From NCBI RefSeq assembly GCF_016616425.1, contig NZ_CP067101.1, positions 2,232,001-2,296,000 of the forward strand: DNA of 64,000 nt, written 5' to 3'. The stretch comes from Bradyrhizobium diazoefficiens. Its GTDB lineage: Bacteria; Pseudomonadota; Alphaproteobacteria; Rhizobiales; Xanthobacteraceae. The notes under the pieces were generated by a model. It did not search any database. It was given only the letters and a program-made list of their open reading frames with translations, and had not been told where the DNA came from. Below, piece by piece: positions 9,672 to 57,476 of the stretch (the first letter of the stretch is position 1; every line of letters starts with the position of its first letter). The translations under genes were made by a program, and so were the position numbers.

Positions 9672-12080
9672 TCAATCGACGTAGCCGTATCTTTTGTAGT
9701 GCTTGTTGCGATAATAGGCCGCGCCGTAGGTGTCATAGCGACTCATCACCGCCACGTTCACCTTGTTGAGCACCGCACCCAGCATACGCTCGCGCACGAT
9801 CGGTGTTTCCGCCAGAACGCGCTCGACGACGTCGACCTTCGATTTCGCCCACTCGATGACGAGGATGTAGCTATCCGCGAGCCCCCTCGTGGCTCGAACG
9901 TCGACCACCGGCGCAAGCGGGCTGAGATCGAGAATGATGCGATCATAGTGCTGGCGCAGATGCTGAAACAGGTTTTCCATCTGCTGGGAGGCAAGCAGAT
10001 CGCTCGAATTCGAGAAGCGTGATGTCACCGCACAGGGAAGAAAATGCAAATTGGTTTGCGGATCGGTCCAGACCACGTCTCTCCAGTCGGCTTTGCCGGC
10101 GATGACGTGGATCAAGCCAAGCTGTGCATTCGGCGTGAGCCTGGCTGTGAGGCGCGGATTGCGAATGTCGCCATCGATCAGAATTGTGCGGGAGCCGCTT
10201 TGTGCCACTGTCTGCGCCAGCGCTTCGCTGATGGTCGACTTGCCTTCGTCCGGAAGAGCGGACGTAATACCGAGGACTTTGTTGGAGGCTGAACCGTAGT
10301 TGCTGAGGTCGCTGGCGAGCTTGATCGACCGGAATCCTTCTGCGAAACGCGAAAACGGCGCGTTGATTACGTAGCGCCCGACACTGTCCTCGGCAGAAAG
10401 CAGCCGCTCGCGATGTGGCTGCGGGTGGCTGGAGCCCGGCTCTCCCCGCTCGAGCGCCAATGCGTTAGGTTTCGGCGGCGCCTGCAAAGATCTCGGTTTG
10501 GTTCGTTTGCGGAACGGCCAGGCTGCCCTGCGGAGTTGGGCGGGTTCGCTGGCGTCGCCCAAACCTTGGCCGATAATCGGAATCGAAGCGAGACAGTTCG
10601 TCTGCACGAGTTGCTCGACCTGAGAAGCGGTTCGGAAGACGCGATCCATCATGTCGAACAGGATGGCGATGATACCCGCGAGAATCGATCCGCCCACCAG
10701 CGCCGCAAGAAGGATAAGGGTTGTTTTGGGCGACGTTTTGTTGGGAGGAGTCGTCGCCGCCTGGGTGATCACCCGTGCTTCGGTGATGGGGAACGACTGC
10801 TGCTGAACCGAGACCATGTACAATTGCAGGAAATTGTCTGACAGGGCGCGGGCGCTCTGTGCATTGCTTTCCAGATCCCTCAGGACGATCTGGGCTTGGC
10901 CGGTATCGTTCGAGACTGCAATCGTATCGTTCAGGCTCTTCTGACTCGATGCTTCGCGCGCCTTGGCGATTTCGAGGTCGCTCTTGTAGACCTCGGCCGT
11001 GCGCCGAAGTTCGTCAGTGATCGAGCGCCGGATTTCGCGCATCTGGTTGCGCAAATTGACGACTGCCATATGCGTCGGCCCATACCTGTTCGACCAATCG
11101 GCCTGCTTCGCCGCGTCCTCGAGATAGGTCTGGCGCAGCTTGGTGATGACCGGGTTGGCCATTGTCTCGCTCACGGTGGCGAGATCGTTCAGGATGACCT
11201 TGGAGTCCTCGCTGTCTGCATTCAATATCGAGGTGATGCGTTCGAGTTTGGCCTGGGCCTCGGCCCGCTGGCTGCGGGCAACAGTTAGCGAACTGTTGAG
11301 TTCCGCGAGCCGTTGCTCGGTCAGAAGTCGTCCACCGGCATCGACGATGTTATTCTTGGCCTTGAAGTCGGCGACGGCCCGCTCGGCGGAGGACGCCTGC
11401 GCCCGCAATTCCTTCAATCGGTCCTGCAACCAGACGGCGGCTCGCCGGGACGCCTGATATTTCGACTCGAGGGAGTCGACAATATAGCCTTCGGCGACCG
11501 CATTGGCGATCTGCGCAGCCTGCTCCTGCGACAACGCTTGAAACGATATCTCGATGACATAGCTCACGCCGACGCGTTTGATGCTGAGGTTGCTTGCAAA
11601 GCGGGCAAGAGCCGCGCGCAGAAGTTGCTCCTCGCTGGGCGGTTTCGACTCGGAAAACAATCCGGAAATCGCTGCGTTGATGCTGCTGAGCAGTCCGCCG
11701 CCATCGCTCATAAACTCCGGCGACTGCGCAAGCTTCAAGTCCTTGATGACCTTGGAAGCAATCGCTTCAGACTTGAGGATTTCGACCTGACTATCGACCA
11801 TTGCCGAGTCGATCGGGTTGTCGCTGCCGTTGGTTGGCGCTTGGGTCTGGAGACCCTGCATCTTGCGACTGTCGATCACCAGAACGGCCGTTCCGGTATA
11901 TCGTTTCGGCGTCGTGAACACGTAGACGCCGGCCAGACAGAGGCACAGGAGCAGCGTGAAAATCGCCACTGGATATTGTCGGCCGATCAGCGCGAGCGCG
12001 GAGGAGATCGTCTGCTCGAGCGATGGGGCCTCGGGTGCTGTGGGACCGATCTCGCGAGGTGTGATTCTTGTCTGAAGCAT
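9672..12080 (-). CDS. Polysaccharide co-polymerase fused to tyrosine autokinase (Wzz/GumC-BY-kinase)
   Basis: An 802-residue inner-membrane protein controlling EPS chain length and export. The N-terminal part is a Wzz domain: first membrane helix around residues 34-53, a large periplasmic coiled-coil region, and a second helix around 450-475. The C-terminal part is a BY-kinase ATPase: Walker A LPDEGKST (609-616), Walker A' ILIDGD (633-638) and Walker B IILDLSP (715-721). It ends in a cluster of seven tyrosines (782-800), the usual autophosphorylation site. This one-polypeptide form is typical of proteobacteria. ATG 12080 is used; the frame is open to a TTG at 12122 with no better ribosome binding site. 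It faces the Wza-like gene and should work with it. Confidence 0.92.
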   Translation of the reverse strand: MLQTRITPREIGPTAPEAPSLEQTISSALALIGRQYPVAIFTLLLCLCLAGVYVFTTPKRYTGTAVLVIDSRKMQGLQTQAPTNGSDNPIDSAMVDSQVEILKSEAIASKVIKDLKLAQSPEFMSDGGGLLSSINAAISGLFSESKPPSEEQLLRAALARFASNLSIKRVGVSYVIEISFQALSQEQAAQIANAVAEGYIVDSLESKYQASRRAAVWLQDRLKELRAQASSAERAVADFKAKNNIVDAGGRLLTEQRLAELNSSLTVARSQRAEAQAKLERITSILNADSEDSKVILNDLATVSETMANPVITKLRQTYLEDAAKQADWSNRYGPTHMAVVNLRNQMREIRRSITDELRRTAEVYKSDLEIAKAREASSQKSLNDTIAVSNDTGQAQIVLRDLESNAQSARALSDNFLQLYMVSVQQQSFPITEARVITQAATTPPNKTSPKTTLILLAALVGGSILAGIIAILFDMMDRVFRTASQVEQLVQTNCLASIPIIGQGLGDASEPAQLRRAAWPFRKRTKPRSLQAPPKPNALALERGEPGSSHPQPHRERLLSAEDSVGRYVINAPFSRFAEGFRSIKLASDLSNYGSASNKVLGITSALPDEGKSTISEALAQTVAQSGSRTILIDGDIRNPRLTARLTPNAQLGLIHVIAGKADWRDVVWTDPQTNLHFLPCAVTSRFSNSSDLLASQQMENLFQHLRQHYDRIILDLSPLAPVVDVRATRGLADSYILVIEWAKSKVDVVERVLAETPIVRERMLGAVLNKVNVAVMSRYDTYGAAYYRNKHYKRYGYVD

Positions 12081-12726
12081 CCGGCTCGCCTGCGTGTACC
12101 TATTGGACTGTAGCGTGTGCAATGCGTGGCATCAGGCGGGTAGAACTAACCCAATGTCAGCAAGAGTTCGACGCCGTGGTGGAGTACGGCGGTCGAGGTA
12201 GCAGCTTTCGAAAGCTGGTCGGCACCACCGATACCATCGCGGGAACAGATAGTCAGATCGGTACGACAAAGTGTCGGCGGCGGGTGCCATTGTCGGCGAC
12301 CAGATCACGCAACCCAAGGTCTCGACCTGCCAAACGTGCCTGTTTCGTCTGTCGCAAAATCATCATAATGCGCATCTCCGCCAACTCGTCCAGGACCTGA
12401 GGATGAAGACAAGTTTGCACCAGCCTTACCAGTCATTGGTTCGCCGATCTCTAGATGAGAATTGAGCAAATTCCATGCCGACCAAACGGAACAGGACGAG
12501 CGAACTCGCAGATTTTGCACTGCAATATCGACCTGAGTGTGACCAAGAAGCAAGTAGTGGAGCGAAAAACCCAACAGGTGGAAACCCGTTCCCGCGCGGC
12601 GCGAGGGCAAGTTGAAGGGAACCGAAAAGTGCTCGTTGTCGAAGCAACCTGTCAGGCGTGTGCCGGTTCCTATTCCACCGGCACAAATTCTCGTCGAACG
12701 CCGATAAGTCAGTTGGTCGAGACCGC
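12081..12726. other. Long intergenic stretch, no supported gene
   Basis: Several overlapping frames exist on both strands but all have serine/arginine-rich shadow-like composition, and none has a credible start or family resemblance. No repeat or terminator was seen. Confidence 0.5.
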
Positions 12727-28784: not shown

Positions 28785-29768
28785 ATGAAGAAGACCGTTC
28801 TGGTCACCGGCGGTGCCGGCTACGTCGGCTCGCATTGCTGCAAGGTATTTGCGATGGCGGGCTGGAACGTCGTGACGCTCGACAATCTGTCCCGGGGTTG
28901 GCGCGATGCGGTGCGCTGGGGACCGTTGGTCGAGTGCGATATTCGCAATTCAGCCGGCGTGCGCGCCGTGCTGGAAACACACAAGCCAGACCTCGTCGCG
29001 CACTTTGCGGCGCTCGCCTATGTCGGCGAATCCGTCGCAGATCCGGCCATCTATTACGACAATAATACGAGAGGAACGCTTGCCCTCCTGGAGGCGATGC
29101 GGGCGGCCGGCTGTCGGCGCATCCTCTTTTCCAGCACGTGTGCCAGTTACGGAGTACCCCGGCACACCCCGATAGACGAAACACATCCACAGGCACCGAT
29201 CAATCCGTATGGTTGGTCCAAGATGATCATCGAGCGTATGCTGGAGGACTTCGGTCGCGCGTACGAGCTGTCGTCGGTTTCGCTGCGCTATTTCAACGCG
29301 GCCGGCTGTGATCCCGACGGCGAGATCGGCGAGCGTCACGAACCGGAGACGCATGCCATTCCGTTGGCGATCGAAGCGCTGCGACGGCCCGATCGGCCTT
29401 TCACCATTCTGGGAACGGACTTTCCGACGCCGGATGGCAGTGCAGTCAGGGACTATATCCACGTCAATGACCTCGCGCAGGCGCACCTGCTCGCAGGTGA
29501 TATGCTGTTGGCTCGAAGCGGTGCTCATGTCTTCAATCTCGGTACGGGGGTGGGCACGAGTGTGCTCGAATTATTGGAAGCCGTGAAGCGTGTCTCCGGA
29601 AACGCCCCGGTCGTCCGCCGCGGCCCACGCCGTTCTGGCGACCCGCCCACGCTCGTCGCCTCCTTTTCTAAAGCCGAGCGGGAGCTCGGCTGGAGGCCGC
29701 GGCAATCAAGCATCGACTTCATTATCGAGACTGCACTCAGGTGGAGCGACGGCAACCGGCCGGCATAG
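28785..29768 (+). CDS. galE: UDP-glucose 4-epimerase
   Basis: A 327-residue extended SDR that interconverts UDP-glucose and UDP-galactose, supplying galactose for EPS (ExoB role in rhizobia). The N-terminal NAD motif is TGGAGYVGSHC. FSSTCASYG gives the catalytic serine/threonine region, YGWSK the tyrosine-lysine pair, and SLRYFNAAGCDPDGEIGE is the family signature. AVRDYIHVNDLA is also diagnostic. It heads an operon: the next gene starts six bases after its stop. The length matches the family (about 330). Confidence 0.93.
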   Translation: MKKTVLVTGGAGYVGSHCCKVFAMAGWNVVTLDNLSRGWRDAVRWGPLVECDIRNSAGVRAVLETHKPDLVAHFAALAYVGESVADPAIYYDNNTRGTLALLEAMRAAGCRRILFSSTCASYGVPRHTPIDETHPQAPINPYGWSKMIIERMLEDFGRAYELSSVSLRYFNAAGCDPDGEIGERHEPETHAIPLAIEALRRPDRPFTILGTDFPTPDGSAVRDYIHVNDLAQAHLLAGDMLLARSGAHVFNLGTGVGTSVLELLEAVKRVSGNAPVVRRGPRRSGDPPTLVASFSKAERELGWRPRQSSIDFIIETALRWSDGNRPA

Positions 29769-29774: not shown

Positions 29775-30941
29775 ATGAAGATGATCGATATCCCGTTCAC
29801 AGGAATTGGACTGGGAAGAGGGGTGGCGCATGTCTCCGTGACGTCGGCTTCCGAAGTTGCGGAAACGCCGTTGAGCGAGGGCATGACGGTGTTCTGGCGC
29901 GCCGGCCAACCGATCGGCCATGTGCTGATGCATGAAGGCCAGATCACCGACGCCAGGATCGATCATATCGACGCCACCTTTCTGTCAGCCGTCGATTCCA
30001 AGATGCGAACCCCGACGAAAGCGAGGCTCTCGGCGAGCGTGGTGATCTGCACGCGCGACCGTCCGGACGAGCTGAGAAAATGCTTGTCGTCGTTGCCGCG
30101 GCAGACCCACCCTCCACGAGAAATCATTGTGGTGGACAACGCATCGCGCGATCGGCGGACGCGGGATGTCGCTTTGGCCGCGGCAGCGACCTATATTCGC
30201 GAAGATCGACCGGGTCTGGACATTGCGCGCAATGCCGGCGCGCTCCAAGCGACCGGAGATATTGTCGCCTATACGGACGACGATGTGCTGCTTCACCCGT
30301 GCTGGCTGGAGCAACTGACATGTGCGTTTGACTCTCCCCAGATCGGTGCGGTGACTGGGCTCGTGCTTCCCGCCGAGCTCGCGACCGAGGCGCAACGGCA
30401 TTTCGAGACCTATTGGGGATTTGGCAAAGGCTATCGCGAGCAGGATTACGATAGCGCGATCTTCCGATCGCATCGCGGTCAGGTCCTTCCCACGTGGGAT
30501 ATCGGCGCCGGAGCGAGCATGGCGTTCCGGCGCGAGGTGTTTCAGGCCGTCGGACTTTTTGATGAGCGCCTGGACGTCGGTCAAGCCGGCTGCTCGGGCG
30601 ACTCGGAGTACTGGTATCGATTGCTTGCGGCCGGCTATACGTGTCGTTACACCCCGGCGTCAGTCGCATTCCACTTTCACCGCAGGACGATGGATGGCCT
30701 GGCCAGCCAGATCTATCACTACATGCGCGGTCATGCGGCCGCACTCCTGGTGCAGTATGAGCGAACCGGAATCCGAGCGAACCGACGATTGGCCTACTAT
30801 CACAAGCCGCGTTGGTATCTCCATCGGCTGCTCCGGAAAGCGGTGGACGGAGAGAGCATTCGCGACCGCTTCCTGAAGGAAGAACTGACGGGGTATCTCG
30901 CGGGACTGCTATTCTATCATCGGCGAAGGCTGCAAAGATGA
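29775..30941 (+). CDS. Family 2 glycosyltransferase with N-terminal extension
   Basis: A 388-residue protein. The first 80 residues form a separate domain (with FWRAGQPIGHVLMHEG) before the GT2 core, which opens SVVICTRDRPDELRKCL and has VVDNASRD and YTDDDVLL as nucleotide and metal sites, then WDIGAGASMAF and SEYWYRLLAAGY. A basic, tyrosine-rich tail closes it. It starts six bases after galE and its stop overlaps the next start (ATGA at 30938), so translation is probably coupled. The donor sugar is unknown. The N-terminal extension also occurs in other GT2 subfamilies. Confidence 0.88.
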   Translation: MKMIDIPFTGIGLGRGVAHVSVTSASEVAETPLSEGMTVFWRAGQPIGHVLMHEGQITDARIDHIDATFLSAVDSKMRTPTKARLSASVVICTRDRPDELRKCLSSLPRQTHPPREIIVVDNASRDRRTRDVALAAAATYIREDRPGLDIARNAGALQATGDIVAYTDDDVLLHPCWLEQLTCAFDSPQIGAVTGLVLPAELATEAQRHFETYWGFGKGYREQDYDSAIFRSHRGQVLPTWDIGAGASMAFRREVFQAVGLFDERLDVGQAGCSGDSEYWYRLLAAGYTCRYTPASVAFHFHRRTMDGLASQIYHYMRGHAAALLVQYERTGIRANRRLAYYHKPRWYLHRLLRKAVDGESIRDRFLKEELTGYLAGLLFYHRRRLQR

Positions 30942-33868
30942 CGGCCTACCCGCGTACGTCGATCGTGATCGCCGCTCGTGATGCCGAGGACACGATCGCG
31001 GAAACGCTCGGCAGCCTGCTCGCGCAAGGCGTCTGCGCCTGGGAGGCTCTGGTCGTGGACGACGGCTCGAGCGATGCAACGGCCGCGATCGTTGCTGAAC
31101 ATGCAGCGCGCGATTCCCGCTTTCGGCTTCTGACCTGCGGCGGAGAGGGCGCTTCCAGTGCTCGCAACAAGGGGATCTCAAACGCAGCCGGCGACCGAAT
31201 ACTCTTCCTGGACAGTGACGATTGGATCGATCGATCGTTCCTCGCACGGATGAATGCTGCGCTGGATCTCGACCCGTCAGCTGTGGCCGCCTATTGCAAC
31301 GGTTGCCGGGTCATGCCTGATGGTGGCGTGACTCCGGTTCGGAGTGACCCATCCATCCAAGACAACGCATTTGAGCGTTTTGCCCGCAGGTGCGCCACGT
31401 TCATCCATGGCGTGCTTGTCCTAAAGAGCGCGGTCGCAAAAGTCGGTGGCTTTGAGACCAGCCTCCGCACGTGCGAGGATTGGGACCTATGGCAACGGAT
31501 CGCTCGCTGCGGCGGCAGGTGGCTCCATGTCGATGAGACATTGTGCTATTATCGAACGAGCGAACGTTCTCTAACACAAGACGTCAATCGCATGCTGGCC
31601 GACGCGCAGGTGGTCATTGCGCGCGGATTTTCCAGCGATGCTCGCGTCAACGAGCCGGCGCTCGCACATCGGACCGGAGCATCACTTGCAAACGGCAGCG
31701 CCGCAGCCGCGTACGCATATTTCGCGCTCTGGTGTGCCGGATTTGAATGCGGCCGCCGGAACGCCAGCGATCCATCACTGGAAACGCTCAGCGACATTCC
31801 CAAGACCCAGACGTCGGCGGACGAGATCACCGGCGTGCTGCTCGAGGCCGTCATGGTCGGGGCAAGAACGGTGCCTGCCAAGCTGGCGGAACGGTGGCCG
31901 CAATACGGAGACGGGATAACCCGCCTCATCCTGGCAATCGGTTGCGCGTGGAACGACCCGGCGGCGGGGCGAAAGTGCCAATACAGCTTTGAACGGAAAG
32001 TGCTCGACTATGACGACCTTTCGGCGCCCAGGGTCCTCACACTGACACTCGGCACGCGCGTTGACCTTCGCCATATCCGCGCTATCCGACCAATCGGGAC
32101 TGTTGATCGATTTTACGTCTATCTCTGCGATGGTTCGCGCATCCTGACGCTGGTCGATGTTGGTGTCCTCGGTATGGTCGGCAGCCGATTCTGGATCTCG
32201 TTGGCTGCCGATGGCTCCGTTCATCCGCAGGTCAGAGACCGGATCGGATGGCTGGTTCGGGCAAAGATCGCACTCCACAAGCGAACCGGACGGGTTCGCT
32301 CCTTCATGCGAGACGGCCAACATACTCACCGGGGACAGCTACGCGAGTTGGCCGCGCGGGCCTCATGTGAGGCACGGTCGCGAGCCATCTCAGGCATCGC
32401 CGCTTCCAGCAGTCCCGCGCAACGTCCCACAAAATCCCGAGACACCGCACGCAAGCAGTATTGGGAGGGGCTCTTCGAGCAAGAGGACCCCTGGAACTAC
32501 GGCTCGCTGTATGAACAGGAAAAGTACACGCGGCAGCTGGAGCTTCTGCCAGACGGACCAGTGAATCACGCGCTCGAGCTCGCGTGCGCAGAAGGGCACT
32601 TCACGCTCCAGTTGGCCCCCAAGGTCGGATGCCTGCGTGCGGCCGATATTTCGTCCAAGGCGCTCGATCGCGCTCGTGTCCGATGCAGCGGGCATCCGAA
32701 TATCGAATTCTCCCAACTGGATTTGTCCGTCGATCCTTTGCCGCGCGACATCGACTTGGTCGTCTGCTCCGAAGTCCTTTATTACCTTAATGACAAGGCG
32801 CAACTAGAATCGGTCGCGAAGCGACTGGTGCAGGCGCTGCGTCCTGGCGGTTACCTTGTGGCGGCCCATACCTTCGTGCTGAAGGACAACATGTCGCGAA
32901 CGGGGCTCGACTGGGAAAGTCCGTATGGGGCGGAGACGATCTCGCGGATTATCCGGAGCGTGCCCGGACTTGCTCTGGAGACATCGATCGAGACGGAGCT
33001 GTACCGTATCGATCGATTCAGGCGGCTACTTCCGGGCGAAGTGCCCCCTGACGCACAGGTGAAGTGCGCGGCTATCAACGCGCCGATTGAGGTCGAGGTT
33101 GCGCGGTCCATCGTGTGGGGTGGGGCCGTGGCGCGCCGGTCTGACGTCGCGCAATCCGAAAGACGCACGCACGCTCCGGTTCTGATGTACCACCGAATTG
33201 CGGCAGAAGGGCCAGGCGAACTGGCGCGGTACCGTTTATCTCCGGAGGCGTTCGGCCAACAGATGCTGTGGCTGCGCCGAAATGGCTACCACACGATCAA
33301 TTCGGATCAGCTCGCCTGGTTCGTGGCAAACGATCATCCGTTCGTCGGCAGGCCGGTGCTGATCACCTTCGACGATGGCTACGAAGATTTCGCGGAGTAT
33401 GGATGGCCGATTCTCCAGGCAAACGATTTCTCGGCAGAGGTGTTCGTTGCGACCGATTTCGCGGGAAAGCGCGCTGAATGGGATGCGCCGTTTGGGCCGC
33501 CCGCTTCGCTGCTTGGGCCGAACAGGATCGCCGCGCTCGCCGCCGAGGGCGTATCCTTTGGCAGTCATTTGGCGAGTCACCCGCGGGGCGAGCACCTTGC
33601 GACCCGGACTCTCGCCGAGGAATTGACGCGATCTCGCGCCCAGCTTGAGCTGTGGCTTGGACGACCGGTAACGTCACTTGCTGCACCCTTTGGCTCTACC
33701 GATCAGCGGCTTGAAATCCTCGCCGCCGAATGTGGTTACAAAACTCTGTTCAACACGGTCGGACGGGCCGCGACGCTGAAGGACAATCTGTTGGATTTGC
33801 CGCGAATTGAGGTCAAAGGCGATTTTACGTTGGACACATTCGCTCGTTGCCTGGAGCAGTACCAATGA
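30938..33868 (+). CDS. Three-domain GT2 / NodS-like methyltransferase / NodB-like polysaccharide deacetylase
   Basis: A 976-residue fusion. Residues 6-215 are a GT2 glycosyltransferase (VVDDGSSD at 39-46, DSDD at 92-95, CEDWDLW at 179-185). Residues 216-500 are a linker of unknown type. Residues 505-700 are a NodS-like SAM methyltransferase, with YWEGLFEQEDPWNYGSLYE at the start and the SAM loop ELACAEG (547-553). Residues 747-960 are a NodB-family deacetylase: LMYHRI (749-754), TFDDGY (810-815) with D812/D813, SHLASH with H877/H881, and AAPFG (915-919). All metal ligands are present. NodB removes an N-acetyl group and NodS methylates the free amine in Nod factor synthesis; here both chemistries are joined to a glycosyltransferase, suggesting an N-methylated aminosugar in the polymer. 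Start and stop both lie in ATGA overlaps. Confidence 0.9.
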   Translation: MTAYPRTSIVIAARDAEDTIAETLGSLLAQGVCAWEALVVDDGSSDATAAIVAEHAARDSRFRLLTCGGEGASSARNKGISNAAGDRILFLDSDDWIDRSFLARMNAALDLDPSAVAAYCNGCRVMPDGGVTPVRSDPSIQDNAFERFARRCATFIHGVLVLKSAVAKVGGFETSLRTCEDWDLWQRIARCGGRWLHVDETLCYYRTSERSLTQDVNRMLADAQVVIARGFSSDARVNEPALAHRTGASLANGSAAAAYAYFALWCAGFECGRRNASDPSLETLSDIPKTQTSADEITGVLLEAVMVGARTVPAKLAERWPQYGDGITRLILAIGCAWNDPAAGRKCQYSFERKVLDYDDLSAPRVLTLTLGTRVDLRHIRAIRPIGTVDRFYVYLCDGSRILTLVDVGVLGMVGSRFWISLAADGSVHPQVRDRIGWLVRAKIALHKRTGRVRSFMRDGQHTHRGQLRELAARASCEARSRAISGIAASSSPAQRPTKSRDTARKQYWEGLFEQEDPWNYGSLYEQEKYTRQLELLPDGPVNHALELACAEGHFTLQLAPKVGCLRAADISSKALDRARVRCSGHPNIEFSQLDLSVDPLPRDIDLVVCSEVLYYLNDKAQLESVAKRLVQALRPGGYLVAAHTFVLKDNMSRTGLDWESPYGAETISRIIRSVPGLALETSIETELYRIDRFRRLLPGEVPPDAQVKCAAINAPIEVEVARSIVWGGAVARRSDVAQSERRTHAPVLMYHRIAAEGPGELARYRLSPEAFGQQMLWLRRNGYHTINSDQLAWFVANDHPFVGRPVLITFDDGYEDFAEYGWPILQANDFSAEVFVATDFAGKRAEWDAPFGPPASLLGPNRIAALAAEGVSFGSHLASHPRGEHLATRTLAEELTRSRAQLELWLGRPVTSLAAPFGSTDQRLEILAAECGYKTLFNTVGRAATLKDNLLDLPRIEVKGDFTLDTFARCLEQYQ

Positions 33869-34860
33869 GCACTGTGGCACCCCTGGTCAGTGTGGTCATT
33901 CCCGCCTTCAACGCCGAGGCAACGATCGACGAGACGCTTCGCAGCGTGAGGTCCCAGTCGCATCGGGAGCTGGAAATCATAATCGTGGACGACGGCTCGA
34001 CCGACAATACGGTTGCAGTCGCCCGGCGGCATTTGGCCGAGGATTCCAGAATATCCGTGATAACACAGCAGAATGCAGGAGTGGCGGCCGCCCGGAATGC
34101 GGGCTGGCAGGCGGCGCGCGCAGACTTCGTCGCGTTCATTGATGCCGACGATCTCTGGACGCACGACAAGATTGAGCAACAGCTTCGGGTCTTGCTCGAT
34201 GGAGACAAGAGAACAGGCCTCGTCTATAGCTGGTACGATTGGATCGACGCTGACAGCTGCGTAAGTGCCAGGTCGGATCCCGTCTTCCATTCGGGCGAGG
34301 TGCTAGACTATCTCTGTCAGGGAAATTTCATCGGTAACGGCAGCTCGGCATTGGTTCGCCGGGAAGCCCTCACAGCTGCAAGAGGTTTCGAGAGCGGACT
34401 GCGGGCGTCGGGCGCCGAAGGCTGCGAAGATCTGCTGTTCTATTGCCGTGTCGCGGAAGCCTATCGCTTTGCGGTCGTACCGCAGTACCAGATCGGCTAT
34501 CGCTACCTTCCTAATAACATGTCAAGCAACATGCCTCGGATGTTCCGGTCGTGGATGCTGGTTGCCGATGAGATCATGACGCGGCATCCCGGACGCGGGC
34601 CGCTGCTCGAGCAAGGCTTCAGAAACTATGCACGTTGGCTGCTCCGGAGGGCTCTGACGGGCGGTCAGTGGTGGTACTTCGCTTCAATCGTTGGACTCCT
34701 GTGCAGACGGAATCCCTTGCTGGCGGTCAGGGTCTGTGTGCACGATGTGCCGCGGGATATCGTCTCCGAAGTCCGGTGGAAATGGCGACATCAACGCCGC
34801 AGGTCGGTTCGACACCGGCTTTCGTCGTTTGCCATCGGCGATCCAAATCAATCGCTATGA
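33865..34860 (+). CDS. Family 2 glycosyltransferase
   Basis: A 331-residue GT2 protein. SVVIPAFNAEATI opens the fold, VDDGSTDNT and FIDADDLW form the donor and metal site, and GCEDLLFYCR holds the general-base acidic residues. The C-terminal 80 residues are basic and hydrophobic, consistent with membrane association. It overlaps both neighbours by four bases (ATGA), so it should be made together with the three-domain protein and the transporter. It probably adds a sugar to the same repeat unit. Confidence 0.9.
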   Translation: MSTVAPLVSVVIPAFNAEATIDETLRSVRSQSHRELEIIIVDDGSTDNTVAVARRHLAEDSRISVITQQNAGVAAARNAGWQAARADFVAFIDADDLWTHDKIEQQLRVLLDGDKRTGLVYSWYDWIDADSCVSARSDPVFHSGEVLDYLCQGNFIGNGSSALVRREALTAARGFESGLRASGAEGCEDLLFYCRVAEAYRFAVVPQYQIGYRYLPNNMSSNMPRMFRSWMLVADEIMTRHPGRGPLLEQGFRNYARWLLRRALTGGQWWYFASIVGLLCRRNPLLAVRVCVHDVPRDIVSEVRWKWRHQRRRSVRHRLSSFAIGDPNQSL

Positions 34861-36734
34861 CAGAGAACGCAGGCAATGCAGGACCGAGAGCTGCTCGCCG
34901 CGCAGCGTTGGTCGAACTGTTCAAACTGCTCAAGCTTGCGCCGTTGCCCCGTTGGGTCACGCCAGTGCTGATTCTCGTTGGGTTCGCTGCCTCGTTGGCG
35001 GAGACGGTCGGAATCACCCTCGTGCTCCTGTTCTTCTATTTCGCTATGGGGCAGGTGGAGCTTGCGACCTCGACCAGCGGTCTGCTGGGCGAAGCGCTCC
35101 GGTATGCGGCGAACTGGTTTCACAGTTCGACAGAGACTGCTGTCATTCTGCTCTTTCTCATTGTTGCCCGGGGTGCTCTTTCCTTCGTCAATACACTTAT
35201 CAGTGCGCGTGTTGGAGAGAATATCAATGAAGTTGCGCGCAACCGCGTTCATCTGCAGTATCTGTCGACTTCGTATTCGTTTTTCCAGCGCCATGATGAA
35301 GCCTATCTCATGGAGGTACTGGGAACCGAGACCTGGGTGATCTCCGGCGCATACGCCAGCCTTACCCGCATTATCGTGAGCTCGTGTTCGATTTTTCTCT
35401 TCGCTTCCTTTCTGCTGGCGCTCTCGATCAAGATAACCGTTCTTGCCGTCGCGGCCTCAATGCTCGTATCGGCTGGATTGCGTCATCTTTCGTTGCCCAT
35501 CCAGCAGCTAGGAACCGGCGTAAAGCTGGTTCATCAAAGACTGGGTGAGCATATGCTGATGACGCTCCAGGGGATGCGCACGATCCGCGCATATGGCCAG
35601 GAGGAAAGTCACCAGACGCGCTTCGAGCAGGCATCGCGGCACGCCAGACAGGTTGCGCTGCAGCTTGCGCGCCTATCCGCCCTGATCTCGCCCCTGACGG
35701 AGGTGGGATATCTTATCGTTCTGTTTCTTGTCATCGCGTTTGCTGATTTATGGGGAATCGGCTTCGCGACGAGCCTGACCGCGGTCGCATTGCTCTATCG
35801 ATTGCAACCGCATATGCGAGATCTTGAGGGGAACCTGCTGTATATGGCGCAGATCGAGCCGCAGTTGAGGTCCATCAGACAGATGCTGGCGACGGACGAC
35901 AAGGAGTACCCGAACGACGGACACGTCCCGGTGGCCACGCTGAAGGACAGCATCTCATTTCGCAACGTGACGTTCCGCTATGATGCCGGCACCGAGCCTG
36001 CTCTTTTGGATGTTTCGTTTGACATTCCTGCGGGGAAGACCACTGCGCTCATCGGAGCCAGTGGAGCGGGCAAGACCACGATCGTAAATCTATTGTTGCG
36101 GCTCTATTCGGCCAGCGAGGGTGTCATACTGGTGGATGGGCGATCCGTCGAAGAAATTCGTCGAACCGATTGGCTCGGCATGCTCGCGATTGCAGGCCAG
36201 GATGTCGACCTGGTCGAAGGCACGGTGATCGACAACGTTCGAATGGCCAAGAGCGACGCCTCCGAGGAAGAGGTGCGGCAGGCGCTGCGGGTCGCGGGCA
36301 TTTCAGAAGTCGTCGAGGCCTTGCCCGACAAATACGGCACCTGGGTCGGACAGCATGGCCTTCGCTTCTCGGGCGGCCAGCGGCAGCGTCTTGGTCTTGC
36401 ACGCGCGATAGTGCGCAGTCCGAAGTTCCTCATTCTCGACGAGGCGATGAGCGCGCTCGATCTGACGCTGGAGGATAGCGTTCGATCTGCAATCCAGCGG
36501 CACTTCAAGGGTCGAACCCTGTTGCTCATAACGCACCGCCTGGAGTCTGTGCGCGATGCGGACCATGTGGTCTGCATTGAAAACGGTCGGGTTCTCGCGG
36601 AGGGGCCTCCGGCCAAGGTCCTGGCGAGTCGAGGGGCGTACGCAACGGGAACTTCGCGAGAGGATGTGCTCACATCTCGGATGCGGAATACGGTTCCCCA
36701 ATTGGAACCAACGTCGGCGCGCGCTCAGCCCTGA
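34857..36734 (+). CDS. ABC transporter, fused permease-ATPase (PglK/MsbA-like flippase)
   Basis: A 625-residue half-transporter: six membrane helices in residues 30-345, then an ATPase domain with Walker A GASGAGKTT (about 400-408), signature SGGQ (505-508) and Walker B LILDE (525-529). It would act as a homodimer. There is no C39 peptidase or other N-terminal domain. Its place at the end of a glycosyltransferase operon argues for flipping lipid-linked oligosaccharides (PglK-like). The RTX protein gene that follows 170 bases later raises the alternative of type I protein secretion, but no HlyD or TolC gene is near. Start ATG 34857 overlaps the previous stop. Confidence 0.87.
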   Translation: MTENAGNAGPRAARRAALVELFKLLKLAPLPRWVTPVLILVGFAASLAETVGITLVLLFFYFAMGQVELATSTSGLLGEALRYAANWFHSSTETAVILLFLIVARGALSFVNTLISARVGENINEVARNRVHLQYLSTSYSFFQRHDEAYLMEVLGTETWVISGAYASLTRIIVSSCSIFLFASFLLALSIKITVLAVAASMLVSAGLRHLSLPIQQLGTGVKLVHQRLGEHMLMTLQGMRTIRAYGQEESHQTRFEQASRHARQVALQLARLSALISPLTEVGYLIVLFLVIAFADLWGIGFATSLTAVALLYRLQPHMRDLEGNLLYMAQIEPQLRSIRQMLATDDKEYPNDGHVPVATLKDSISFRNVTFRYDAGTEPALLDVSFDIPAGKTTALIGASGAGKTTIVNLLLRLYSASEGVILVDGRSVEEIRRTDWLGMLAIAGQDVDLVEGTVIDNVRMAKSDASEEEVRQALRVAGISEVVEALPDKYGTWVGQHGLRFSGGQRQRLGLARAIVRSPKFLILDEAMSALDLTLEDSVRSAIQRHFKGRTLLLITHRLESVRDADHVVCIENGRVLAEGPPAKVLASRGAYATGTSREDVLTSRMRNTVPQLEPTSARAQP

Positions 36735-36903
36735 ATGTACCAAAGCACGGACTTCAGTTGAGCCGTAGCATTACGGTGTCTCCGCAGAAATCTCCGCCCA
36801 TCACTTGATTCTCGCGTCATGCGTCAAATTGTGTCTAACCGGTAAGGCTCTTTTGAACGCCCGCATAGTTGTGTGTCCCGTTAAAGGGAGCACGCAATCC
36901 ATC

Positions 36904-39900
36904 ATGACTATTATCAATGGTAGCGCTGGTGCTGACGTTCTGTTTGGCGGTACCGGAAATGATGTTCTGACCGGAGGGGCAAGCAGCGATACTTTCGTCA
37001 TCTCGAAGGGGTACGGCTCCGACATCATCACCGACTTTCAAGCGGGCAGCGGCGGCGATGCGCTGCGCGTGCAGAACTATGGCTTTGCGACGTTCGCCAA
37101 TTTCCTGGCCGCCGCGACGCAAGTGGGGGCCGATACGGTCGTAACTCTCTCATCGACCGAAACCCTTACCCTGCAGAATGTCACGCTTTCGGCCCTGGTT
37201 GCAGACAACGTCGTGCTGGATAATCCGCTGCCGACAGGCGGAACGGCATGGAACTGGGCGGGTACTGTCCCCACGGGCGGCACACTGACGACCGGCGCGA
37301 CAAATGACGGCATGGAGGCCGGCGGTACCGGCGTTACTCTGGTGGGCGGAGCGGGGGACGATACCTACTATGTTTATGACCACAACACGAAAGTTGTCGA
37401 ACAGGCAGGAGAGGGTGTCGATACCATCTGTGTCTGGAACATCAATGGATACAGCCTCGTCAATGCGCCCAACGTCGAGAACCTGATCCTGACGGATAGC
37501 GTTCCGTCTCCCGCCACCGGTAATGACCTCAACAACATCATTGTCGGCAATGCCGGCGACAACATGATCGACGGCGGGCGGGGCAACGATGTGCTGACCG
37601 GCGGGGCCGGTCATGACACCTTCGTGGTAACTGCAGGCAACGGCAACGACATCGTCACCGACTTTCAGGCGGGCGTCGGCGGGGACATCCTGCAACTCAA
37701 CAACACGGGCTTCAAGACGTTCGCCGACATTACGGCGGCCATGAAACAGGTCGGCACCGACCTCGTCCTGACGATCGGCAGTGGCGAAACCATAACCCTC
37801 GAAAACACCAGCCTTCAGAATCTCGCGGCCGCAAATGTCAACATCATCAGTCCCCTGACCGGACTGGTCCAGACCTTCAACGACGACTTCAACACGCTCT
37901 CCGCGGGCCAGGATCCGAGCCTGACCTGGCGCACAAGCTATGCCTGGAGCGGAGCCGCAGGGTACGGGCTGGCCGGCGAACAGGAAGTGTATGTCGATCC
38001 CAGCTTTTCCGGGCTACCGGCAACTCAGTCATCGACGGCGCTCGGGCTTAATCCGTTCTCGATCCAGGACGGCCACCTCGTGATCACGGCGCAGCCCTTG
38101 CCCACGAGTGCCACGCCTTATACCGGCAGCGCCATTTTCTCGTCGGGCATGATCTCGACCCAGAACAGCTTCACCCAGACCTACGGCTATTTCGAGATGA
38201 CGGCCACGCTGCCCAGCACGAGCGGCGCGTGGCCGGCATTTTGGTTGTTGCCGACCAAGGCCAATAACCTCAACACGGAAATCGATGTGCTCGAGGCCTT
38301 TGGCCAGGATGCCGACCAGGCTCATTGGGCCATTCACTCGCCATACGCGCCTGCGGCAGATGGTGGTTGGGCAAATACAGCCGACCTGACCGCTGGAGAA
38401 CACACGTTTGGTCTCGAATGGACGCCTTACCAACTGTCGTTTTTCGTAGATGGGAAGGAGGTCGCACAGCAGGCCACGCCCTCCGACATGAACACGGCGA
38501 TGTACATGATCGCCAACCTTGCGATGGGCGGCAGTTGGCCGGGCAATGCCGCTCCCGGGTCAACGGCGACGATGACCATCGATTCAATCAAGGCTTATGA
38601 GCTGCCGGAATACACGCTCGCGAACTACACCCTTCTCACGAGCGGCGCCTCGACCAATACCATCGCGGGAAGCGCGGCTGCGGATACACTGACCGGCACT
38701 TCCGGCAATGATCGCATCGGTGGTGCCGGAGGCGCCGATACCATGACCGGCGGCGCTGGCGACGACACCTATGTCGTGACCGATTCGGCCGCGAAGGTTG
38801 TCGAAGCCTATGGCGGCGGCGTCGATACGGTACTCTCTTCGGTGACGTACACGCTTCCCAGCTACGTCGAGAATCTGACGCTGGTCGGTTCGGCGGCCAT
38901 CAATGCCACAGGCAATATCCAGTCCAACAACATCATCGGAAATTCCGCGGCCAACGTCATCACTGGCGGGCTTGGCAATGATATCCTGACCGGCGGTGGC
39001 GGGGCGGATAGCTTCGTAATCAACTCTGGCGACGGCTCGGACATCATCACCGACTTTTCGCCGGGCTCGGGCGCCGGACACGACGTTGTCCAGTTGAACG
39101 GCTTTGCCTTCACGTCATTCGCCGATGTGCAGGCGGCGATGACCCAGGTCGGGAGCGACGTGTATCTGAAGTTGACGAGCCAGGACACCCTGGTGTTCCG
39201 CAACACGACGGTCTCAACGTTCTCCAGCGACGATTTCCAGTTGCCGGCAACGCTTCCCGTTGGCGGGACGATCACGTCCTGGATCAGCGGGAAAGCGAGC
39301 AGCCGCATGGTGTATGGCACCGCGGCGAACGACAAGCTCACGGCTGTGAATAGCGATGACACGCTGGTGGGAGGTAACGGCGACGACACTTACGTCATCG
39401 GCAGCGCGAACCAGAAAATAGTCGAGAATTCCGGCGCCGGCGTTGACAGCGTGGAGGCCTGGACATCGTACACGTTGCCGGCCAACGTCGAAAACCTGAC
39501 GCTGATGATGGGCGGGCTCGCCGGCGTCGGCAACCAGCTAGCCAACCGCATGGTCGGCTCGAGCGGGGACGACATTCTCGACGGCGCCGGCGGGAACGAC
39601 TGGCTCTCCGGAGGGGCCGGCAACGATACGTTCATTTACAATGCAGGCAGCGGCAGCGATACCATCGCGGATTTCCATGTCTTGACGAGCGCGACTGCCG
39701 AGCACGACAAGCTGATCCTGAAAGGTTACGATAGCAGCGCCTATTTGACCCATGTGAACGACGTATGGACCGTTCACTACGCGGGCGGAACAGATAACCT
39801 GCGCATTGCCGGCGTCACGAGCTTGGCGTCGGCCGACTATTCATTCGCTTCCGCGACGAATTCGCCGATTGCGATGGCGCCTATCGCCGTGCCGACGATT

Positions 39901-42465
39901 TCGGCGGCCAACGACAGCGGCTCGATCGTGTCGGGCCTCATCAACACAAATCATCTGATCCTTACGGGCCACGTGCAGGCAGGTGTAACCGTCAAAGTGT
40001 TCGACGGGCCCAATCAGATCGGCACGGCGGTCTCCGACGGTAGCGGTACCTGGAGTTTCGCGACCGCAACGCTGGTCGAAGGGGTCCATGCTTTCACGGC
40101 CGCTGCAATGGACGGCGTCGGCAATCTCAGTGCCCTTTCGACCGGGGTCAATGTCACCATCGACACGGTCGCCCCGACTGCGCCCAAGGTCGTGTCGTTC
40201 TCGCCCGACAGCAATGTTGCTGGCGATGGCTTGACCAACATCAATCAGGTGAACTTGGCTGGAACCGCTGACGCGGGCAGCATGGTGCAGGTCTTCGACA
40301 GCGGCACGATGATCGGAACGGCGGTCGTCGATGCCAATGGAGCTTGGTCCTTCGCGACAGGAAATCTGGCGGACGGCAGCCACATCTTTTCCGGCAGGGC
40401 CGCGGACGCCGCCGGCAATATCAGTGCTTCCTCAGGCGCGCTGAACGTCACGGTCGACACGCATGCACCGGTTGCACCCGTCGTGACCTCGGGTGCACCT
40501 GCAGCTCCGAACGCCATATTGGTTTCCGGCACGGCGGAGGCCGGAAGCACTGTTCGGCTATACGAAGGCTCGAACTTGCTTGGCACCGGCGTTGCGGGGG
40601 TAAGTGGGACCTGGAGCATCACCACCGGATCGCTCACGGCAGGCCAGCACAGCTTCACCGCGACCGCGACCGATGTCGCCGGCAATTTGAGCCAGCTATC
40701 GAACGCCTTCAGCTCCGCCGTGGGTAAGGTGATCGAAGCGGTCGGCACGACTACGCTCAGCCAGGTGGGAAGCAACTTCTACCTTTCCACGGCTGGGTCG
40801 TCGGTTCTGTTGAAAAATGGTGGGACGGCGGTTGTCGCTGGGCAGCTTGGCCCATGGGTGCCAGTGGGGACGGAAACATCGTCGAGCGGCTATCTTGTCG
40901 CCTGGAAGATCCCTTCGACCGGACAGTTCACGATCTGGAACACCGACAGCAACGGCAATTTCGTATCCAACTATCTGAACAAGGTGTCCGGAACAGACCC
41001 GGCGCTCGAGTCGAGCGAGACCCTCTTTCACCAGGATCTCAATGGCGATGGTGTGATCGGCGTTCCGCCAACGGTGGCGACGTCGCCCACGACAATTGTC
41101 GGGACGACGATCGAGGCATTCGGCTCGACCAGCCTGATTGCGGTCGACAAGAATTTCTTGTTGATCTCGACGGCCGCTGGCACTGGGCCGATCTTGAAGT
41201 ACGGCGGCGCCGCGGTCGTTCCGGGGCAGTTCGGGGTCTGGACGCCGGTGGCGGCGGAGCAGACCTCCACTGGTTACGACGTGGCTTGGAAGATTCCGGC
41301 CACCGGCGAACTCTGTGTGTGGGCTACGGACAGCAACGGCAATTTCGTATCCAACTATCTGAACAAGGTGTCTGGAACCGATCCGGCGCTCGAATCGAGC
41401 GAGACCCTCTTTCACCAGGATCTCAATGGCGATGGTGTGATCGGTGTTCCGCCAACGGCGGCGACGTCGCCCACGACAATTGTCGGCACGACGATCGAGG
41501 CATCCGGCTCGACCAGCCTGATTGCGGTCGACAAGAATTTCTTGTTGGCCTCAATGGCGGCGGGCACTGGGCCGACGTTGAAGTACGGCGGTGCCGCGGT
41601 CGTGCCGGGACAGTTCGGGGTCTGGACGCCGGTGGGCGTGGAGCAAACGACCAGCGGCTATGACGTGGTCTGGAAGATTCCGGCCACCGGCGAACTCTGT
41701 GTGTGGACCACGGACAGCAATGGCAATTGGGTATCGAACCTCCTGAACAAGGTGTCCCCGACTGACCCAGCTGTTAAAGCGATCGAGACGACATTTTACC
41801 AGGATCTCAATGGCGACGGTGTAATCAACACGTCATCGACCGTCCTCGATATCTCCGGGAACGTTGTATTGAAACTCGGTAGTATGACGCAGGCCACGAC
41901 GATCAACGCCGGCGCCACACTCGAATTATCCGGCGCCGCTTCTGGATCGATCACCTTCAAGGCGTCGACGGGCAATCTGGTGCTGGACCATGCGGCGCAA
42001 TTTACGGGGACGCTGATCGGTCTGACGGGTGACGGTACCGCGGCGAACTCCAACCATCTCGATCTGAAGGACGTCGCGTACGGAACGGGGACATCGGCGT
42101 CGTTTTCCGGCAACACAGCCGGCGGCGTGTTGACGGTAGTCGATGCCCAAAATCACGCGGCACACATTTCGTTGGTTGGCGACTACACCAAATCGACCTT
42201 CAATCTCTCGAGCGACGGAACAGGCGGAACGCTGGTCATCGATCCTCCGAAAGCCAATTTTGATTTTGCCCCGGTCCCGGCGTCGCAGCCTCTCGCGACT
42301 GCGCCGGTCGTCGACGAGACGTTGCATGAATCGATCGGGATAGCTCCCGTCGCGGGGACCGGCCGCCCGGATGCCGGCCCCGGCCTTTATCAGTTCGATC
42401 TCGTTCATGCGGCGGGCCCGCTCGATGCCCACCTGGCGGAGTTGCATGACTTCATCCTTCGCTGA
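36904..42465 (+). CDS. Giant RTX protein with GH16 catalytic domain, Ig-like and W-rich repeats
   Basis: An 1853-residue protein with no N-terminal signal peptide, as expected for type I secretion. Calcium-binding RTX nonapeptide blocks (GG.GND.L type) occur at about residues 3-60, 135-160, 210-265, 580-630, 675-720, 800-835 and 885-925. A GH16 domain spans about 320-567, with WPAFWLLP and EIDVLEAFG; E459, D461 and E464 fit the catalytic ExDxxE. Three bacterial Ig-like domains follow (about 1000-1275), then three tryptophan-rich C-terminal-type repeats of 126-128 residues (about 1276-1640) and a beta-rich tail. The architecture parallels rhizobial ExsH, an RTX GH16 EPS-cleaving enzyme. GGGAG lies 13 bases before ATG 36904. 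Confidence 0.9.
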   Translation: MTIINGSAGADVLFGGTGNDVLTGGASSDTFVISKGYGSDIITDFQAGSGGDALRVQNYGFATFANFLAAATQVGADTVVTLSSTETLTLQNVTLSALVADNVVLDNPLPTGGTAWNWAGTVPTGGTLTTGATNDGMEAGGTGVTLVGGAGDDTYYVYDHNTKVVEQAGEGVDTICVWNINGYSLVNAPNVENLILTDSVPSPATGNDLNNIIVGNAGDNMIDGGRGNDVLTGGAGHDTFVVTAGNGNDIVTDFQAGVGGDILQLNNTGFKTFADITAAMKQVGTDLVLTIGSGETITLENTSLQNLAAANVNIISPLTGLVQTFNDDFNTLSAGQDPSLTWRTSYAWSGAAGYGLAGEQEVYVDPSFSGLPATQSSTALGLNPFSIQDGHLVITAQPLPTSATPYTGSAIFSSGMISTQNSFTQTYGYFEMTATLPSTSGAWPAFWLLPTKANNLNTEIDVLEAFGQDADQAHWAIHSPYAPAADGGWANTADLTAGEHTFGLEWTPYQLSFFVDGKEVAQQATPSDMNTAMYMIANLAMGGSWPGNAAPGSTATMTIDSIKAYELPEYTLANYTLLTSGASTNTIAGSAAADTLTGTSGNDRIGGAGGADTMTGGAGDDTYVVTDSAAKVVEAYGGGVDTVLSSVTYTLPSYVENLTLVGSAAINATGNIQSNNIIGNSAANVITGGLGNDILTGGGGADSFVINSGDGSDIITDFSPGSGAGHDVVQLNGFAFTSFADVQAAMTQVGSDVYLKLTSQDTLVFRNTTVSTFSSDDFQLPATLPVGGTITSWISGKASSRMVYGTAANDKLTAVNSDDTLVGGNGDDTYVIGSANQKIVENSGAGVDSVEAWTSYTLPANVENLTLMMGGLAGVGNQLANRMVGSSGDDILDGAGGNDWLSGGAGNDTFIYNAGSGSDTIADFHVLTSATAEHDKLILKGYDSSAYLTHVNDVWTVHYAGGTDNLRIAGVTSLASADYSFASATNSPIAMAPIAVPTISAANDSGSIVSGLINTNHLILTGHVQAGVTVKVFDGPNQIGTAVSDGSGTWSFATATLVEGVHAFTAAAMDGVGNLSALSTGVNVTIDTVAPTAPKVVSFSPDSNVAGDGLTNINQVNLAGTADAGSMVQVFDSGTMIGTAVVDANGAWSFATGNLADGSHIFSGRAADAAGNISASSGALNVTVDTHAPVAPVVTSGAPAAPNAILVSGTAEAGSTVRLYEGSNLLGTGVAGVSGTWSITTGSLTAGQHSFTATATDVAGNLSQLSNAFSSAVGKVIEAVGTTTLSQVGSNFYLSTAGSSVLLKNGGTAVVAGQLGPWVPVGTETSSSGYLVAWKIPSTGQFTIWNTDSNGNFVSNYLNKVSGTDPALESSETLFHQDLNGDGVIGVPPTVATSPTTIVGTTIEAFGSTSLIAVDKNFLLISTAAGTGPILKYGGAAVVPGQFGVWTPVAAEQTSTGYDVAWKIPATGELCVWATDSNGNFVSNYLNKVSGTDPALESSETLFHQDLNGDGVIGVPPTAATSPTTIVGTTIEASGSTSLIAVDKNFLLASMAAGTGPTLKYGGAAVVPGQFGVWTPVGVEQTTSGYDVVWKIPATGELCVWTTDSNGNWVSNLLNKVSPTDPAVKAIETTFYQDLNGDGVINTSSTVLDISGNVVLKLGSMTQATTINAGATLELSGAASGSITFKASTGNLVLDHAAQFTGTLIGLTGDGTAANSNHLDLKDVAYGTGTSASFSGNTAGGVLTVVDAQNHAAHISLVGDYTKSTFNLSSDGTGGTLVIDPPKANFDFAPVPASQPLATAPVVDETLHESIGIAPVAGTGRPDAGPGLYQFDLVHAAGPLDAHLAELHDFILR
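40732..41830 (+). repeat. Three tandem in-frame repeats of about 380 bases inside the RTX gene
   Basis: Units begin at 40732, 41110 and 41494 (spacing 378 and 384 bases). The shared motif DSNGN recurs at 40945, 41329 and 41713, exactly 384 bases apart. From about 40945 onward, consecutive units agree in roughly nine bases of ten, with several substitutions silent. Each encodes one tryptophan-rich repeat ending in a DLNGDGVI calcium-site-like motif. Confidence 0.85.
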
Positions 42466-52855: not shown

Positions 52856-52882
52856 CTCGAAGGGCGAACCGATCGACGGCCC

Positions 52883-53731: not shown

Positions 53732-53824
53732 GGTGCCTACTCCACCGCGAAGAGTCTTCACAATAAAGTCGAAGGCGGCAATGAAGCAAGCCGCATCGGG
53801 CCGGCGGGGACGGAGCAGGTGCGT

Positions 53825-54985: not shown

Positions 54986-55318
54986 CACGCTTGCTCCGTG
55001 GTTCTGCTTTGTGCAGGCGAGACAATAGACGCGCAGGTGGGCATTCCGAAGCCGGAGGCCTTCTTTACCTTAACCGAAGGTTGAGGGCGCGGCAGATTTC
55101 GCCGCCGGCCAGAGCCGGGCTCGGCTGAGATAAGGCACTACGTCGCGCCAAGTACGTTGCGCCAAGGCAGCATGGCTCGGTCATAGCGCTCTGGAGTTAA
55201 CAAACCGGCCTCCGATCACTGTCGCGTGCGAGCGCTCGGATCGCTGGGTGTCGCTTGCGAAGGCCCGGCCGGCCGGTCGTCGATCGCATGGCGATGCCGA
55301 TGTGCTCGACGCACGGCT
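54986..55318. other. Intergenic, nothing recognised
   Basis: About 330 bases between the acyltransferase (minus) and a small secreted protein (minus). No coding frame or clear regulatory element. Confidence 0.45.
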
Positions 55319-57295: not shown

Positions 57296-57360
57296 GCGCG
57301 CCGAGGCCGAGCGCTTTCGAGCTTACCCCTCCGACGGGAGCGCTTGCCGCATCCTTCGCT

Positions 57361-57463: not shown

Positions 57464-57476
57464 TCGTGGTTGGGTG

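Follow-up and report, generated by a model that had tools for sequence, protein, structure and literature searches.

What would a bacterium build with one protein that joins a glycosyltransferase, a methyltransferase and a deacetylase? The question is raised by a gene, here called TRI, in a 64,000-nucleotide stretch of the Bradyrhizobium diazoefficiens genome (contig NZ_CP067101.1, positions 2,232,001 to 2,296,000), referred to below as the window. A first-pass annotation had read TRI as an enzyme of an exopolysaccharide (EPS) operon, in which a NodB-like deacetylase frees an amine and a NodS-like domain methylates it. Taken jointly, our evidence makes it on balance probable that TRI is a cytoplasmic glycan-building enzyme in which a single chain carries out family 2 glycosyltransferase (GT2) transfer, de-N-acetylation by a carbohydrate esterase family 4 (CE4) domain and N-methylation, with export by a linked cassette.

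TRI is a single open reading frame (ORF) whose translation has 976 residues, and the three complete catalytic domains placed in it by the first-pass annotation are all recovered above the Pfam cut-offs: Glycos_transf_2 (PF00535) at residues 8–119 (1.9e-26, 93.4 bits), NodS (PF05401) at residues 512–670 (4e-21, 76.2 bits against a cut-off of 24) and Polysacc_deac_1 (PF01522) at residues 805–936 (6.8e-19, 68.5 bits against a cut-off of 23.1). The GT2 assignment includes the DxD-type motif DSDDW (92–96), and the CE4 assignment the Asp-Asp and His-His motifs formed by D812, D813, H877 and H881. These four residues and the S-adenosylmethionine (SAM) loop ELACAEG, starting at residue 547, are intact where they had been placed. 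Among 68 relatives whose frames exceed 900 residues, D812, H881, R956 and the SAM-loop residues E547 and G553 are kept in all 68, while H752, D813 and H877 are each kept in 67, the single exception being the same locus (L085) every time; H752 and R956 are deacetylase residues that the first-pass annotation had not listed. The model of the whole protein has a pLDDT of 88.5. The Kyte-Doolittle mean stays below 1.6 in every 19-residue stretch (maximum 1.59), as would be expected of a soluble protein.

A protein search that scored the best 7,993 candidates returned 941 relatives of TRI. All three Pfam domains are present in 115 of the 120 relatives listed; of the remainder, P0045 and P0115 have no methyltransferase, P0046 matches no deacetylase model, and P0050 and P0096 match no GT2 model. 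Among the matches listed, identity is 49–87% over the full length, except for one near-copy at 97%. Many relatives are named "trifunctional glycosyltransferase/class I SAM-dependent methyltransferase/polysaccharide deacetylase" by NCBI, and these proteins, which have the full-length architecture of TRI, are its own family. Judged by the listed full-length homologues down to 49% identity, the three-domain architecture is far beyond chance, and TRI is a genuine and intact member of a family that is widespread and has a name but seems to be unstudied. Our literature searches found no paper on the family, and the phrase "trifunctional glycosyltransferase" was matched in none. The architecture and the NCBI name are thus what was known already; the evidence for coupled steps, the class of the deacetylase, the cassette with its exporter and the folded but unassigned domain, all described below, are new.

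The survey across genomes that the first-pass annotation had suggested found that the architecture is not unique to this genome. At least 75 TRI loci were located in rhizobia, other proteobacteria, cyanobacteria and further phyla. Most are in Mesorhizobium, and the other carriers include at least Bradyrhizobium, Reyranella, Neoroseomonas, Novosphingobium, Maritimibacter, a Methylococcaceae bin, cyanobacteria, Paraflavisolibacter, an Acidobacteria bin and Myxococcota; this is the minimum spread, and metagenome bins account for several of the records. Within its own lineage TRI is patchy: the genus has it in 14 of 195 genomes, the family sample in 2 of 198 and the class sample in 2 of 385. Two copies (C1:4117875-4120802 and 7509185-7512115) are present in one congeneric genome (G573). 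A record titled Synechococcus sp. CS-1325 (L036) contains a rhizobium-like TRI and cassette, and its methyltransferase groups with the rhizobial rows, which suggests a mis-binned contig or a recent transfer.

The deacetylase is the domain for which the first-pass annotation needs correction. NodB proper belongs to the NodB1 class (DD...HXXXH...RxPYG...DxxDW...LLH), and the NodB of the same genome can be read to have this order (TFDDG, HTMTH, RAPYG, DPRDW, LLHD). TRI shares with NodB the family PF01522 and the Asp-Asp and His-His motifs, but the NodB1 order is absent from it and its match to the NodB of its own genome reaches only E 0.021. The NodB2 class, as characterized in the portion of the structural survey PMC10967932 drawn on here, has VLMYH as its first motif, a third motif without arginine and no fourth motif. 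TRI has VLMYH at 748–752, AAPFG at 915–919 as a third motif without arginine, and R956 near the C-terminus, in agreement with the features given in that portion and in the corresponding part of PMC8807736. All eight PDB sequence matches of the domain (6dq3, 4v33, 6go1, 4hd5, 3vus, 4f9d, 4wcj and 5bu6) fall, by entry or by protein, in the NodB2 class as listed there (PMC10967932).

The best deacetylase match in Foldseek is PplD (6dq3; TM by target 0.88). The counterpart residues of PplD, according to the sections of PMC8807736 consulted, are H105, D167, the zinc ligands D168, H223 and H227, and R302, and mutants in H105 and D167 resemble the deletion. In a sequence alignment H752 and R956 of TRI pair with 6dq3 chain positions 15 and 212, which are 197 apart, as are H105 and R302 of PplD. 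The PgaB model TIGR03938 gives the TRI deacetylase 78.1 bits against a cut-off of 321.9. From its motifs and nearest relatives, the domain is a CE4 deacetylase of the PgaB/IcaB/PplD kind, with VLMYH first, Asp-Asp, His-X3-His, a C-terminal arginine and no arginine in motif 3, and is not NodB-like in the narrow sense. A difference from PplD is that the latter is described as membrane-anchored with an extracellular catalytic domain (PMC8807736, same sections), whereas the domain in TRI is fused to a glycosyltransferase and a SAM enzyme, in a chain with no evident membrane stretch.

The methyltransferase fared better under the name first given to it. NodS is both its best PDB sequence match (8.3e-20) and its best methyltransferase fold match in Foldseek (3ofk; TM by target 0.83), and the next two solved sequence relatives are phosphoethanolamine N-methyltransferases. 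It has 34% identity (E 1e-24) to the NodS of the same genome (L150:254-856:-), a protein encoded 3.7 Mb from TRI that passes the NCBIfam NodS cut-off with 344.9 bits. This nodS lies in what we take to be a nodABCSI cluster, the genes nodA, nodB, nodC and nodI having been named by reading and not by family model. The TRI domain shares with NodS the motifs DPW and EVLYY, E526 and W659; the last is present in all NodS and all TRI rows, while D517, P518, W519, E526, E612 and Y615 are found in NodS, TRI and near relatives alike, each being present in at most 40% of ten distant PF05401 rows.

Membership of PF05401 says little alone, for 82 of 142 genomes of the class and 6 of 14 control genomes contain a match above its cut-off. 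Against the NCBIfam NodS equivalog NF041650 (cut-off 300 bits), TRI scores 85.8 bits as a whole protein and 89.9 as a domain. In a tree of 64 methyltransferase domains, made without L012 and L108 (L108 with fewer than 115 residues), the 25 TRI rows form one clade (98/94) and the 3 NodS rows another. The first-pass annotation had let its reading stand or fall with the NodS family, and the outcome is divided: the domain is inside the Pfam family but outside the NCBIfam one. On this comparison it is nearest to NodS, yet forms a clade of its own below the equivalog cut-off. TRI is further unlike NodS in being fused, in lying outside the nod cluster and in occurring in cyanobacteria and other phyla.

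Genes for a deacetylase and such a methyltransferase are also found together outside both NodS and TRI. PIG-L deacetylases (PF02585) are a different fold family from the CE4 deacetylases. In 9 of 14 loci of near methyltransferases that are neither NodS nor TRI (G355, G372, G386, G400, G430, G435 twice, G446 and G476, other members of the order), a PIG-L domain lies 281–324 bases away on the same strand, beside the methyltransferase or fused to it. Three genomes beyond these 14 loci add one such pair (G230) and two without (G257, G296). These pairs are like TRI in coupling a de-N-acetylase with a NodS-like methyltransferase and unlike it in the deacetylase family and in the methyltransferase, which falls in another clade. 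By gene content, this group of methyltransferases is paired with a deacetylase in three ways: NodB–NodS, TRI and the PIG-L pairs.

Natural variants of TRI bear on the same relationship. We compared 200 rows (P0001–P0121, six further relatives and 73 of the 75 loci L013–L087, L069 and L072 having been dropped at 600 residues or fewer), in which the same gene may appear twice where rows come from two sources. The set contains 184 complete proteins, 7 without the methyltransferase, 6 without the glycosyltransferase, 1 without the deacetylase (P0166) and 2 partial proteins. In five of the seven methyltransferase-less proteins the deletion ends near residues 491–511 and 716–739, close to the limits of the methyltransferase domain; P0167 has its alignment breaks at 424 and 684, and P0168 at 441 and 744. 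In a 103-row tree (the seven and 96 of the 184 complete proteins, without L085; methyltransferase and catalytic columns excluded), well-supported branches require the methyltransferase to have been lost independently six times or more. A 135-row tree (the seven and 128 of the 184, including L085) again gives six methyltransferase changes.

The deacetylase set (H752, D812, D813, H877, H881 and R956) is changed in four of the seven methyltransferase-less proteins (P0045, P0161, P0167 and P0168), against one of the 184 complete proteins (L085; Fisher p 3.2e-6, kinship ignored). On the 103-row tree all four deacetylase changes lie on methyltransferase-less tips, which make up 4.7% of the tree length; on the 135-row tree four of five do so, on 3.6%. 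Six of the seven keep the glycosyltransferase residues D42, D92, D94 and E180, the exception being P0168 with D42N. These natural losses suggest that deacetylation and methylation work as a pair, because loss of the methyltransferase goes with changed deacetylase residues and near relatives of the methyltransferase adjoin PIG-L. The deacetylate-then-methylate logic of the first-pass annotation is thereby strengthened by the PIG-L pairing, the repeated losses and the deacetylase changes. According to the part of PMC5080398 that treats Nod-factor synthesis, chito-oligomers are never N-methylated unless they have been deacetylated first. Since the three deacetylase pairings, the variants and this order of chemistry point the same way when taken together, methylation of an amine after deacetylation is the likeliest reading.

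Four of the six glycosyltransferase-less rows are on long contigs (L051, L052, L053 and L066, all Mesorhizobium); these proteins start in or just before the middle domain, have no GT2 domain and keep the tested methyltransferase and deacetylase residues intact. The other two were not counted as true variants of this kind: P0096 comes from a contig of only 2.3 kb, and L056, which also has changed deacetylase positions, from one of 5.4 kb that contains runs of N and a frame break.

The 285-residue linker between the glycosyltransferase and the methyltransferase, which the first-pass annotation thought might be a further domain, is folded in the structure models, with confidence to about residue 420 and again at 461–480. 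Residues ~233–483 gave no Pfam, NCBIfam or clear PDB fold match, the PDB comparison covering residues 225–482. As modelled, this would be a further domain without a recognised fold and is a candidate new fold.

TRI is flanked by genes that may complete the pathway (Table 1). Its ATG overlaps the stop codon of GT2-A by four bases (ATGA, 30938–30941), its own stop codon overlaps the start of GT2-B likewise (33865–33868), and GT2-B overlaps an in-frame ATG of the exporter gene (34857–34860), the longest ORF of which starts earlier, at 34635. Because of these successive ATGA overlaps, the four genes GT2-A, TRI, GT2-B and ABC (ATP-binding cassette exporter) look translationally coupled. The best family of the ABC protein is HepA (NF045513), at 346.4 bits against a cut-off of 725, and its MsbA match is also below the cut-off.

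Table 1. Coordinates in the window of TRI, its domains and the adjoining genes
Feature	Position	Strand	Description
Trifunctional gene (TRI)	30938..33868	+	GT2, unassigned domain, NodS-like methyltransferase, NodB2-type CE4 deacetylase
GT2 domain of TRI	30938..31633	+	residues 1-232; Pfam 8-119; DSDDW 92-96, EDWDLW 180-185
Former "linker" of TRI	31634..32386	+	residues ~233-483; helical bundle and small beta element
NodS-like class I methyltransferase of TRI	32450..33097	+	residues ~505-720; DPW 517-519, ELACAEG 547-553, EVLYY 612-616, W659
CE4 deacetylase of TRI, NodB2 type	33173..33868	+	residues ~746-976; VLMYH 748-752, D812, D813, H877, H881, R956
GT2-A, upstream of TRI	29775..30941	+	cassette member; ATGA overlap with TRI
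GT2-B, downstream of TRI	33865..34860	+	cassette member; ATGA overlap
ABC exporter	34857..36734	+	membrane and ATPase parts; best NCBIfam match HepA, then MsbA
GalE	28785..29768	+	UDP-glucose 4-epimerase; directly upstream of GT2-A

GT2 and ABC proteins being common families, the cassette argument is carried by order and coupling. Among the 75 listed loci, relatives (E 1e-20, 70% coverage) of GT2-A are found in 15, of GT2-B in 21, of the ABC exporter in 18 and of all three in 11. Gene order was read in 32 displayed loci. The order GT2-A, TRI, GT2-B, ABC recurs in Bradyrhizobium (L013, L014), Mesorhizobium (L049, L063), L036 and L048, four cyanobacterial loci (L079, L081, L082 and L083) have the order GT2-B, ABC, two GT2-A, TRI, and in L076 the exporter and GT2 genes are on the strand opposite TRI. 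Most Mesorhizobium copies of TRI share none of the three neighbours. In two of the Mesorhizobium loci (L024 and L045; nine neighbour proteins, annotated with Pfam) TRI is flanked by cyclase, redoxin, OmpA, TPR and channel genes, with no polysaccharide genes directly beside it.

The window itself is an EPS locus. It contains an initiating sugar transferase (445–2022), a Poly_export protein (8128–9324), a Wzc-like protein (9672–12122, minus strand), two Wzx-type genes (at 20421 and at 43389, minus strand), a probable Wzy whose match is below its cut-off, a pyruvyl transferase, acyltransferases and glycoside hydrolase family 16 (GH16) enzymes. The ABC gene is directly followed by the gene for a large RTX protein (36805–42465) that contains one GH16 domain and W_rich_C stretches, three in number; this protein falls just short of the cut-off for the NCBIfam endo-1,3-1,4-beta-glycanase EglC (686.7 of 700 bits) and has relatives in L013, L014, L015 and L084. 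The GC content rises from ~56–62% in the EPS region to 61–67% beyond ~52 kb (52000–64000 in the window), which would fit an EPS locus that differs from its surroundings in origin or in the constraint it is under.

In the pathway that we infer, the GT2 domain would add a sugar to a growing, probably lipid-linked, oligosaccharide, the C-terminal CE4 domain, which has no membrane anchor, would strip the N-acetyl group from an N-acetylhexosamine, and the NodS-like domain would then methylate the freed amine with SAM, the middle domain probably holding the acceptor or the modules together. The two neighbouring GT2 proteins could complete the oligosaccharide, and the HepA/MsbA-like exporter could carry it across the membrane. 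The cassette lies here inside a Wzx/Wzy-type EPS locus and may decorate or feed the EPS product.

The first-pass annotation went further and placed an N-methylated or free aminosugar in the repeat unit of the EPS itself. A TRI that builds the repeat unit of the main Wzx/Wzy EPS would be at home among the initiating transferase, export protein, Wzc-like protein, Wzx-type genes and probable Wzy of the window, but the sub-threshold Wzy match and the genes around other copies of TRI tell against it, and we consider it unlikely. The partners that recur across phyla are the two GT2 proteins and the ABC exporter. In ten loci outside Bradyrhizobium, chosen for holding the exporter (one, L064, without relatives of GT2-A or GT2-B), neither Wzx nor Wzy is among the 25 commonest neighbour families, although single genes may occur (114 neighbour ORFs of 210–1150 residues; 25 commonest of 65 and 108 families considered). 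L024 and L045, with their cyclase, redoxin, OmpA and channel neighbours, tell the same way. The surroundings named in the first-pass annotation were thus read correctly, but the tie to EPS was overstated, and a repeat-unit aminosugar is only one possible product. Because the recurring partners are two GT2 proteins and an ABC exporter, and because polysaccharide genes do not adjoin TRI in L024 and L045, we favour an oligosaccharide or glycolipid exported by the ABC protein over a product that must be an EPS repeat unit, although both routes are at hand in the window.

A glycolipid or linkage sugar could also be the target of the deacetylase and the methyltransferase, as the linkage N-acetylglucosamine of streptococcal rhamnopolysaccharide is of PplD. 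Among solved structures PplD is nearest to the deacetylase, the exporter is of the MsbA/HepA sort, and there are TRI copies without adjoining polysaccharide genes; in the window, however, the gene is in an EPS locus, and we would not expect this alternative to be the right one any more than the EPS repeat unit. The two alternatives differ from the cytoplasmic one-chain pathway in product only, so that the probabilities we attach to the three are not meant to add up to one.

Several observations weigh against a coupled deacetylation and N-methylation. Class I methyltransferases are known to catalyse both N- and O-methylation, and similarity to them cannot separate the two. The 64-domain tree gives no settled sister relation between NodS and TRI, and no PIG-L domain was found within 1 kb in 5 of the 14 near methyltransferase loci (G366, G442, G451, G454 and G472). 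Pair tests that take kinship into account are not significant, either with 103 rows (three to four of six pairs agree and none opposes; p 0.125–0.25) or with 135 (p 0.125–0.625). In three of the seven methyltransferase-less proteins (P0115, P0160 and P0162) the deacetylase set is wholly intact, an argument against strict dependence; some of the seven, moreover, are single metagenome sequences that could be decaying genes. Complete proteins also vary elsewhere, a glycosyltransferase residue being changed in 8 of 184 and a methyltransferase residue in 2 of 184. Finally, the Bradyrhizobium EPS compositions quoted from PMC8707904 include 4-O-methylgalactose and 2-O-methyl- or 4-O-methylglucuronic acid and, as quoted, name no aminosugar. 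An O-methyltransferase (for example one capping a sugar hydroxyl), with the deacetylase acting on another residue and the fusion merely keeping three modifiers together, would suit these O-methyl sugars, the dual chemistry of the class and the three intact deacetylases, but is quite improbable when the three best solved sequence relatives are all named N-methyltransferases, most near relatives examined pair with PIG-L and deacetylase residues are changed in four of the seven proteins that lack the methyltransferase.

Returning to the coupled, N-methylating enzyme, we tentatively propose, at somewhat less than even confidence, that it stands for a widespread and seemingly unstudied glycan pathway, common to rhizobia, cyanobacteria and further phyla, in which a single cytoplasmic enzyme with a coupled PgaB/PplD-type and NodS-type module, joined up by a new domain and served by dedicated ABC export, yields an N-methylated or free aminosugar, and that deacetylation followed by N-methylation recurs in bacterial glycans, with NodB–NodS, TRI and the PIG-L pairs as its instances. 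If this is true, the Nod-factor style of chemistry, in which an amine is freed and then methylated, would extend far beyond nodulation, and unrelated deacetylases would serve one group of methyltransferases. Natural variants would be predicted to have changed deacetylase residues where the methyltransferase is gone. Basic N-methyl aminosugars would be predicted at the cell surface of organisms for which we found no such report in the literature looked at, and since adhesion and contact with a host are affected by charged sugars, such a product would have practical relevance for rhizobia.

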